64,000 nucleotides of DNA from NCBI GenBank assembly GCA_026986775.1, contig JALSNX010000003.1:62001-126000 (forward strand), read 5' to 3'. Numbering within the stretch: position 1 is the first letter of the stretch; every line of letters begins with the position of its first letter. Made by a program: the position numbers and the translations under genes. This DNA is from Caldifarciminota bacterium. GTDB taxonomy: Bacteria; Hydrothermota; Hydrothermia; UBA1063; CAJXJZ01. The notes under the pieces were generated by a model. It saw only the letters and a program-made list of their open reading frames with translations, made no database searches and was not told the DNA's origin. Positions 17,768 to 21,205 of this stretch are shown in pieces.

Positions 17768-17796
17768 TTGCTTTACCGTCTGTATGGTGTTATAAT
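17768..17796 (+). promoter_or_regulatory. Promoter of rpsT-tRNA operon
   Basis: TTGCTT (17768-17773), a 17-base spacer, then a consensus TATAAT (17791-17796). It lies 24 bases before the rpsT ATG, followed by AGGAGG. No other promoter is seen before the two tRNAs, so they are likely co-transcribed with rpsT. Confidence 0.75.
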
Positions 17797-17820
17797 ACAT
17801 AACCAGCACAGGAGGTATAA

Positions 17821-18069
17821 ATGGCCAATATAAAGTCAGCAAAAAAGAGAATAAGGCAGAATGAGAAGAGGAGATTAAGAAACAAATCTTACAAGAGTTT
17901 TCTCAAAACCATAACAAAGAAGTATCTAAAAGAAAAGGACCCTGAGAAGAAAAAGGAACTCCTCAAAAAGGTCTATTCTGCCTACGATAAAGCGGTGTCA
18001 AAGGGAATTCTCCATAAAAACACCGTTGCAAGGAAAAAGAGCAAACTGACAGGACTTCTGGGCGGTTAG
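17821..18069 (+). CDS. rpsT: 30S ribosomal protein S20
   Basis: An 82-residue basic protein with the S20 signature [18 protein letters not shown] and the helical [24 protein letters not shown]20 binds 16S rRNA in the body of the small subunit. AGGAGG precedes the start. Its last two glycine codons and stop codon coincide with the first 10 bases of the tRNA-Val gene: the acceptor-stem strand GGGCGGT encodes the end of the protein, and the TAG stop is bases 8-10 of the tRNA. Confidence 0.96.
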
Positions 18070-18132
18070 CTCAGTGGTGAGAGCGCCTGCCTTACAAGCA
18101 GGAGGTCGGAGGTTCGAATCCTCCATCGCCCA
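18060..18132 (+). tRNA. tRNA-Val (anticodon TAC)
   Basis: A full cloverleaf can be drawn. The acceptor stem is GGGCGGT/ATCGCCC with one G-T pair. The D arm is GCTC/GAGC and the anticodon arm CCTGC-CTTACAA-GCAGG with anticodon TAC. The T arm is GGAGG-TTCGAAT-CCTCC and the discriminator is A. The CCA end is not encoded. The 5' end overlaps the rpsT coding sequence by 10 bases. Confidence 0.96.
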
Positions 18133-18141
18133 TTTAAAAAT

Positions 18142-18216
18142 CGGGGCGTAGCGCAGCTTGGTTAGCGCACCAGCATGGGGGGCTGGGGGTCGGTGGTTCG
18201 AGTCCACTCGCCCCGA
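18142..18216 (+). tRNA. tRNA-Pro (anticodon GGG)
   Basis: The acceptor stem is CGGGGCG/CGCCCCG and the anticodon arm CCAGC-ATGGGGG-GCTGG with anticodon GGG, decoding CCC/CCU. The T arm is GGTGG-TTCGAGT-CCACT with one mismatch, and the discriminator is A. No CCA is encoded. It starts 9 bases after tRNA-Val. A run of eight T residues follows and may help termination. Confidence 0.95.
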
Positions 18217-18242
18217 TTTTTTTTATTTACAGGAGTAAAACA

Positions 18243-19306: not shown

Positions 19307-19899
19307 ATGCTTATAGTTGAGCAAATGGATGAAATTTTTGAGGCACTTGAACGCCAGATTCGGGAAGAAGAGGGAGAAAGAGTATCTCTGGTCATCATAG
19401 GAGGAACTGCACTGGCTGCACTGGGCGTTTTGTCAGGCGGTTTACCAAAGATGTGGATGTTCTGGGAGAGGTAATTGAACAACATGATAGAATGGTAATA
19501 CAAAAGATTGAACAGTTTCCTCTGTTTTTAGAAAGAGCAATTAAGAAAGTAGCAAGGGATTTTGCTCTTCCTGATAACTGGATGAATTTAGGTCCTGCAT
19601 CTCAATTGGATCTGGGACTTCCAGAGGGATTTTCCAATCGTTTGATTCGTAAGGAGTACGGTTCTCATCTCGTGCTTTACTTTGCAGGACGTAAAGATTT
19701 GATTCATTTTAAGTTATTTGCTGCAGTGGACAGGGATGATTATCATGTAAAAGACCTTTTTGCGCTGAAACCAACAAAAGAGGAGCTTTTAGAGGCAGCA
19801 AGATGGACATTGACGCAGGATGTTTCTCTGGAATTTCGCACATTACTTGAACAGTTTCTGCAGGAAAAAGGATACGAAGATGTTGCCGAACGACTTTAA
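19307..19899 (+). pseudogene. AbiEii/DUF6036-like nucleotidyltransferase, frameshifted
   Basis: The ATG at 19307 (GGGGAG upstream) opens a frame giving EQMDEIFEALERQIREEEG, then VIIGGTALAALGVL. The protein then continues in a second frame from about base 19433: RRFTKDVDVLGEVI through to the stop at 19899. Together they form about 197 residues with the nucleotidyltransferase pattern GG(T)AL...TKDVDVL and the downstream RKDLIHFKLFAAVDRDDYHVKDL seen in DUF6036/AbiEii-type proteins. One missing base, a sequencing error, or -1 ribosomal slippage around TTTTG would restore the frame. Family members are toxins of type IV-like systems or antitoxin modifiers. The 3' end overlaps the next gene by 20 bases. 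Confidence 0.75.
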
Positions 19900-21205
19900 C
19901 CAGCAATTTTCACAATTAATAGCATCTTTTTTATGGGACCAATGGAAAAAGTTAGGTATAGCAGTATGGGACAGTAAGAATAATGGCTTAAGCTGGTTAA
20001 TTGACCCTGAGGCTCTAATTCTTGCATCATCTTCATTGCAGGGTGAGGACCCTCATCTTTTTCATGTTATGCAGAAATGGATGGGAACTTATCATCGCCT
20101 TCTTCATACGGCGCGGATAAGGAGATTATGGAAGCAGTATTTAAGCCTCGCAAAAAAAATGAAAATTCCAGTATATGGATATATTGATGTGCAGAGCTGG
20201 ATATCTAAAAGGGATAGTTTCAGGGAGAAAGAAATACTTTCTGTTCCTCGCTGGGAAGACTCAAGCCTTCTCTGGTTAAAACTCCGCTCGCTTTTAGGAA
20301 GTGGTGTAAGGTCAGATACGCTGATTTATTTTTTATACCATGACATTGGCACAACTTTCTCCATTTCGCGGGAAATGTTTATTGACCAGAGAAGTGTTCA
20401 TGACATAATCCGTATATGGGAGTCTGTTGGATGGGTACGCCGATTTGGACAAAAAAGAGGATACGTTATTGCGCCCTCTTTTCGGGACAATCTTTTAAAA
20501 ATAGTTGAAATTGAGAAAGTTCCTGCATGGTTTAATGCTGGAAGGGTATTTACAGGGATGCTTCTTGTAAAGGGGGCCATAGAGAGGTTTGCTGAGCATC
20601 AGGATATGTACCTTTTATCTTCCCACTTCCGTGATATACTTCCATTACTAACTGAAATATGGGAGATAACAAAAGTTAAGTATCCCAATCCCATATCACA
20701 CCCGGGGAAAGAATACGTTTCAGTATTTTTACAATCAATTATGGAAGCGTGTGAGCAATTGGGTCGCTCATTGGAAACTTCTAAAACTACGAGGTCAAAG
20801 TTAGAGTCCGATACTACCGAATATAAAAATACGGTTGTTGAAAAGAACAGGTTTATTGAGTTTGATTTGCATAATGCAGCATACAGGGCGCTCAGGCGAC
20901 GTTACCCTGCAAGTGAAGGATGGAGTATTATTCCAGAGTTTGGAAGTGATAAATATCGTATTGATTTTGTGGTGGAAAAGAGAGATTCTTCAGGGAAAAT
21001 CCATCGCATTGTTGTAGAGGTTAAAGCAACATGCATAATAGAGCGGGAGGCTATATACCAGTTGGAGCATTATGCAGGGCATCTTGCTGACCCAAATGTG
21101 AAAATTGATGGTAAAATCCTTATAGTTCCTTACGGTGCCAGGTTAAGCGCTGCCCTTCCTGAGGATGTTAAAGTTATTTACTTAAGGAGTTTTAGATGTG
21201 GTTAA
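19880..21205 (+). CDS. HTH protein with C-terminal PD-(D/E)XK nuclease-like domain
   Basis: I do not recognise a named family for the whole protein (441 residues). Residues ~1-135 are helical and unassigned. Residues ~140-198 look like a winged helix (TFSISREMFIDQRSVHDIIRIW, then VGWVRRFGQKRGYVI). Residues ~323-441 carry a restriction-endonuclease fold pattern: IIPEFG (E353), YRIDFVVE (D362), RIVVEVKA (E380-x-K382) and YQLEHYAG (Q394). I chose the ATG at 19880, with AAGGA 7 bases upstream, over an in-frame ATG at 19820 deep inside the partner gene. CGN arginine codons are far more common here than in the surrounding AGA/AGG-rich genes, a sign of transfer. It could be the DNA-binding antitoxin and regulator of the nucleotidyltransferase, a nuclease effector, or both. 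Confidence 0.8.
   Translation: MLPNDFNQQFSQLIASFLWDQWKKLGIAVWDSKNNGLSWLIDPEALILASSSLQGEDPHLFHVMQKWMGTYHRLLHTARIRRLWKQYLSLAKKMKIPVYGYIDVQSWISKRDSFREKEILSVPRWEDSSLLWLKLRSLLGSGVRSDTLIYFLYHDIGTTFSISREMFIDQRSVHDIIRIWESVGWVRRFGQKRGYVIAPSFRDNLLKIVEIEKVPAWFNAGRVFTGMLLVKGAIERFAEHQDMYLLSSHFRDILPLLTEIWEITKVKYPNPISHPGKEYVSVFLQSIMEACEQLGRSLETSKTTRSKLESDTTEYKNTVVEKNRFIEFDLHNAAYRALRRRYPASEGWSIIPEFGSDKYRIDFVVEKRDSSGKIHRIVVEVKATCIIEREAIYQLEHYAGHLADPNVKIDGKILIVPYGARLSAALPEDVKVIYLRSFRCG

Follow-up and report, generated by a model that had tools for sequence, protein, structure and literature searches.

Bacterial mRNA-tRNA operons were reportedly described by Mohanty and Kushner in 2008, with secG-leuU of E. coli as an example. 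The rpsT locus of the Caldifarciminota bacterium resembles this operon in that a tRNA lies downstream of a protein gene on what would be one transcript and would be freed by RNase P, however, the secG coding sequence ends before its tRNA, and rpsT has its stop codon within the tRNA. In animal mitochondria, tRNA punctuation is described as a process in which RNase P excision sets the 3' end of the mRNA and incompletely encoded stop codons can yield non-stop mRNAs (PMC9674279). Judged by position, an RNase P cut would likewise remove the stop codon of rpsT or split that of a second gene, acyP (UA/G), and acyP is the nearer mitochondrial parallel. Unlike in mitochondria, where polyadenylation completes the stop codon, all three stop bases of rpsT would leave with the tRNA; an added A cannot make a stop codon from the remaining ...CTT-CT end, which would be possible for acyP alone. 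An ORF overlapping a tRNA gene has been mentioned, as annotation only, for a gut bacterial species (PMC8967034), and an endosymbiont was annotated with a Prokka modified to permit ORF/tRNA overlap (PMC7969357). Both cases are alike in that a bacterial ORF overlaps a tRNA gene, and they differ in that the relevant passages of the two sources describe no mechanism, conservation or stop codon inside the tRNA. Integrated elements are reported to overlap archaeal tRNA genes (PMC3218864). A search of the open-access literature by title and start of abstract returned no bacterial protein gene with its stop codon in a tRNA, a weak result since subscription journals are largely outside this literature.

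The end of rpsT within tRNA-Val(UAC)

Coordinates without a prefix are positions in the window, which is the whole 64,000-nt stretch of DNA that was analysed. The source genome is G000 and its congeners are G001-G003. The features of the locus are as follows.

17768..17796, plus strand: rpsT promoter, TTGCTT (17768-17773), 17-nt spacer and TATAAT (17791-17796) with a TG extension, assigned by motif and conservation
17810..17815, plus strand: AGGAGG, which from its familiar motif we take to be the Shine-Dalgarno sequence of rpsT
17821..18069, plus strand: rpsT, 30S ribosomal protein S20, 82 aa, TAG stop at 18067-18069, with Pfam and NCBIfam matches
18060..18069, plus strand: overlap of rpsT and tRNA-Val, 10 nt, read from the sequence
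18060..18132, plus strand: tRNA-Val(UAC), the sole copy found in G000, nucleotides 8-10 of which are the rpsT stop, located by Rfam and ARAGORN
18142..18216, plus strand: tRNA-Pro(GGG), the third gene of the proposed unit, located by Rfam and ARAGORN, own promoter not detected in the promoter scan
18217..18224, plus strand: run of 8 T immediately 3' of tRNA-Pro, a possible terminator, from the sequence and a predicted fold

Family profile searches identify the rpsT product as S20 (Pfam PF01649, 99 bits; TIGR00029, 99.1 bits). The final codons of rpsT are CTG (Leu, 18058-18060), GGC (18061-18063), GGT (18064-18066) and TAG, and they place the third base of the Leu codon at nucleotide 1 of the tRNA and the stop codon at U8-A9-G10. 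The original prediction that the S20 coding sequence ends inside tRNA-Val is borne out, with the last Leu base, two Gly codons and TAG forming tRNA nucleotides 1-10. The Rfam match to tRNA-Val (18060-18132) scores 78.2 bits, the top score among the 45 tRNAs of G000. ARAGORN starts the tRNA one base before Rfam, at 18059, apparently because U(-1) is able to pair with A73. In the congener G002, position -1 is a C and ARAGORN starts at the canonical base, therefore 18060 is the better start. CCA is not encoded in the tRNA-Val gene. Among the 45 tRNAs found in G000 (98.4% complete), tRNA-Val(UAC) has a single gene, though a second may have escaped the 30-contig draft assembly.

The predicted fold indicates that the T run at 18217-18224 and upstream A residues would extend the tRNA-Pro acceptor stem to 13 pairs, which makes the run a possible terminator. 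Given T runs directly 3' of tRNAs in the window (18137-18224) and at other tRNA loci, the tRNA itself may act as the terminator stem. TTTT occurs within 9 nt after the tRNA in 20/45 cases in G000 (background 7%), 23/45 in the relative G005, 14/46 in G046, a distant member of the phylum, and 12/49 in the outgroup Anaerolinea thermolimosa (G060). Elsewhere in the window, a 461-aa ORF (19820-21205) features a C-terminal stretch that by eye resembles the PD-(D/E)XK nuclease core.

Linkage and promoters among relatives

The source's class was sampled with 40 genomes, 37 of which contain rpsT. The gene that follows rpsT on the same strand is tRNA-Val(UAC) in 20 of the 37, tRNA-Val(GAC) in three and tRNA-Ala in one, and no tRNA follows in 13. 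The 20 genomes with tRNA-Val(UAC) close behind rpsT span seven families, and the gap from stop codon to tRNA ranges from -10 to +34 nt. This comparison of spacing, which the original prediction had called for, reveals a gap of -10 nt in six of the 20, comprising all four species of the genus (G000-G003), G008 and G018, and a stop codon 5-34 nt ahead of the tRNA in the remaining 14. All six overlapping genomes, from three genera of three families, use the same frame and stop at U8-A9-G10. The rpsT codons immediately before the overlap vary in number and sequence across the four congeners and the overlap is constant. Because G004-G007 and G013, which belong to the same families as G008 and G018, respectively, lack the overlap, the distribution suggests that it arose at least twice. 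Outside the class, none of the 16 scored phylum-level loci (of 17) has a same-strand tRNA within 400-600 nt downstream of rpsT. Among the best 80 rpsT relatives from named genomes, the only one with a tRNA on the same strand less than about 200 nt away belongs to WOR-3; on this count, linkage as a trait of all bacteria was rejected. The nearest named relative fetched is DCDE01000030.1, from a candidate division WOR-3 bacterium.

Most tRNAs of G000 are preceded by a TTGACA-N17-TATAAT-like site, the -10 box of which lies 14-24 nt ahead of them. A promoter was called at a score of at least 9.4 between positions -26 and -10 before the tRNA, with the score, cut-off and interval set after a first inspection of the data. 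With CDS defined as ORFs of 80 aa or more, a promoter is present at 21/21 tRNAs of G000 without a CDS within 60 nt, at 8/8 preceded by a CDS that stops 21-60 nt away, at 1/11 inside tRNA clusters, and at 0/5 whose upstream CDS ends 20 nt or less away or inside the tRNA, tRNA-Val included. The comparison of CDS-attached with free-standing tRNAs (0/5 vs 29/29) gives a Fisher p of 3.6e-6, which is optimistic because the threshold is post hoc. The direction is the same, and less clean, in G005 (1/6 vs 24/30) and G046 (0/4 vs 26/37).

At the rpsT gene itself, a promoter is recognised in 19 of the 20 rpsT-tRNA-Val(UAC) genomes, the exception being G011 (score 7.7). The site reads TTG...-17-TATAAT in 4/4 congeners and TTGACA-17-TATAAT in G008; a scan demanding 4/6 matches per hexamer did not list the rpsT promoter. 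A sigma-70-like promoter precedes the tRNA at none of the 20 rpsT-linked tRNA-Val(UAC) genes and at 3/3 of the rpsT-linked tRNA-Val(GAC) genes. Given these three counts, the most likely reading is that tRNA-Val(UAC) relies on transcription from the rpsT promoter. The close same-strand linkage in 20/37 class genomes and the lack of a separate sigma-70-like promoter are features of an embedded-tRNA operon.

Other protein genes that end inside tRNAs

A survey of all 45 tRNAs of G000 found three ORFs of at least 70 aa that end inside a tRNA, namely rpsT, a 320-aa ORF and an acylphosphatase gene. The 320-aa ORF (L063:1017-1979; G000:C12:15016-15978) runs 23 nt into tRNA-Ser(CGA) before it stops, and 4/4 genus members, G000 included, share this 23-nt overlap. 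Its product has no Pfam or NCBIfam match, and relatives of it occur in 9/9 genomes searched, G000 included. As in same-strand overlapping genes, both rpsT/tRNA-Val and the 320-aa ORF/tRNA-Ser share bases, and the sharing is conserved in 4/4 congeners. The acylphosphatase gene acyP (L052:354-629, minus strand; L200; L201) matches PF00708 with 80.5 bits. Its TAG shares the G with nucleotide 1 of tRNA-Arg(CCT) in G000 and G003, a 1-nt overlap that splits the stop codon as TA/G. In G001 the acyP frame runs 23 nt into tRNA-Arg(CCT), and the G002 copy, at a contig edge, was left out. After an RNase P cut, an added A would restore UAA in acyP, as in mitochondria.

Baselines were taken from other genomes. 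No credible ORF ends inside any of the 45 tRNAs of G005, and one does so among the 46 tRNAs of G046, where the gene for a cNMP-binding protein (L242:1486-2001; PF00027, 83.6 bits) stops 22 nt into tRNA-Glu(TTC). In Anaerolinea thermolimosa, none is believed among the 49 tRNAs examined (51 found), where two ORFs of at least 70 aa that end in tRNAs were dismissed as spurious on visual inspection with no family search, and the nearest other ORF stop lies 19 nt upstream of a tRNA. Also dropped as spurious by eye were one overlapping ORF in G005 (tRNA-Leu) and one in G046 (tRNA-Ser).

Proposed fate of a probable shared transcript

The reading that we favour, with a probability of about 0.72, is a compact operon of rpsT and its tRNAs: an old embedded-tRNA operon has become compacted, the resulting overlap is tolerated and is no evolved switch, and the RNase P cut makes the rpsT mRNA non-stop. 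The rpsT promoter would drive a single transcription unit composed of rpsT, tRNA-Val(UAC) and tRNA-Pro(GGG). The rpsT frame would have lost its own stop codon and would now terminate at U8-A9-G10 of the tRNA. T8-A9-G10 is common in tRNAs, and loss of the stop codon near a tRNA with capture by this common triplet is sufficient to account for the overlap. S20 would be completed by ribosomes on the uncut precursor, and a terminating ribosome would cover the 5' acceptor strand and the D arm of the tRNA, delaying its folding and cutting, so the tRNA would fold and be cut only when the ribosome is absent. A cut before G18060 would release the tRNA and leave an rpsT message that ends in an incomplete codon, ...CTT-CT; the loss of the stop codon is what the original prediction had proposed. 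In Aquifex, RNase P is reported to be absent or replaced; the same was rejected for G000, whose RNase P RNA is of type A (257 bits). The genome also encodes tmRNA (171.5 bits) and SmpB (202 bits). Ribosomes at non-stop mRNA ends are rescued by trans-translation, which is reported in >97% of bacterial genomes (PMC11633108). With tmRNA and SmpB both encoded, rescue of the ribosomes that remain on a cut rpsT message would fall to tmRNA-SmpB, followed by decay of the message; this supports the predicted need for ribosome rescue.

Because the sole tRNA-Val(UAC) gene found has no recognisable promoter of its own, each tRNA-Val molecule made would cost one rpsT message. The original prediction described S20 translation and tRNA maturation as mutually exclusive, which does not hold as worded, since many rounds of translation would be possible before the irreversible cut and only the order of the two would be forced. 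If tRNA-Val is very stable, few cuts could be needed and little non-stop message would be made. The proposed coupling of S20 output to tRNA processing stands as a mechanical consequence of this arrangement and is not supported as regulation. The 14 of 20 operon genomes that keep the stop codon 5-34 nt before the tRNA indicate that its loss is unnecessary for operon function.

The same 14 genomes make it unlikely that selection keeps the overlap for regulation, with RNase P activity or the demand for tRNA-Val setting the time during which rpsT mRNA is translated. Such regulation would fit the retention of the overlap in 4/4 species of the genus while the adjacent upstream codons change, and its recurrence in three genera of three families, however, the two other genes that end in tRNAs have no obvious link to ribosome production. 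Folding of the leader argues in the same direction. The 3' end of rpsT pairs with the tRNA D arm in the predicted fold of G000, and G003 and G001 give similar shapes. Compared with 300 synonymous recodings per species in five species, the hairpin is no stronger than the nulls in four (fractions of 0.877, 0.387, 0.203 and 0.723) and borderline in G000 (0.053), and a leader-tRNA switch hairpin was dropped because the real sequences are unexceptional against the recodings.

A separate promoter inside rpsT that makes most of the tRNA, leaving rpsT mRNA rarely cut, is about as improbable as regulation. Some relatives do have partial matches ~75-85 nt ahead of the tRNA, and the scoring took in sigma-70-like motifs only, so it would overlook an rpsT-internal promoter that belongs to another sigma class. 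Within that scope, the scan found no plus-strand site inside rpsT, over the final 110 nt the top-scoring site does no better than shuffles (0.92), and none of the 20 linked tRNA-Val(UAC) genes has a site at the lineage's usual position; the dedicated promoter that was named as able to overturn the prediction is thus unsupported, also by the 0/5 CDS-attached tRNAs of G000. Least probable by far is an artefact in which an assembly or sequencing error masks a normal spacer or the real S20 stop lies elsewhere. G000 is a multi-contig draft, but the same in-frame layout is present in G000-G003, G008 and G018, which rules out a sequencing error hiding a spacer, and both the top-scoring tRNA-Val and the S20 family matches speak against an artefact.

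The compact operon would place two core jobs, the making of a ribosomal protein and of an essential tRNA, in direct conflict on one RNA, in an arrangement that has lasted through the genus. It offers a natural test of RNase P against terminating ribosomes and of the share of trans-translation that is spent on normal, undamaged messages. Additionally, gene finders that bar CDS/tRNA overlap can truncate or miss real genes. It is possible, though we hold it tentatively, that in this genus the single-copy tRNAs Val-UAC, Ser-CGA and Arg-CCU arise only from messages whose stop codons they carry, which would make non-stop mRNAs obligatory. If this is true, trans-translation would be a routine part of making tRNA and would set the yield of S20 per transcript.
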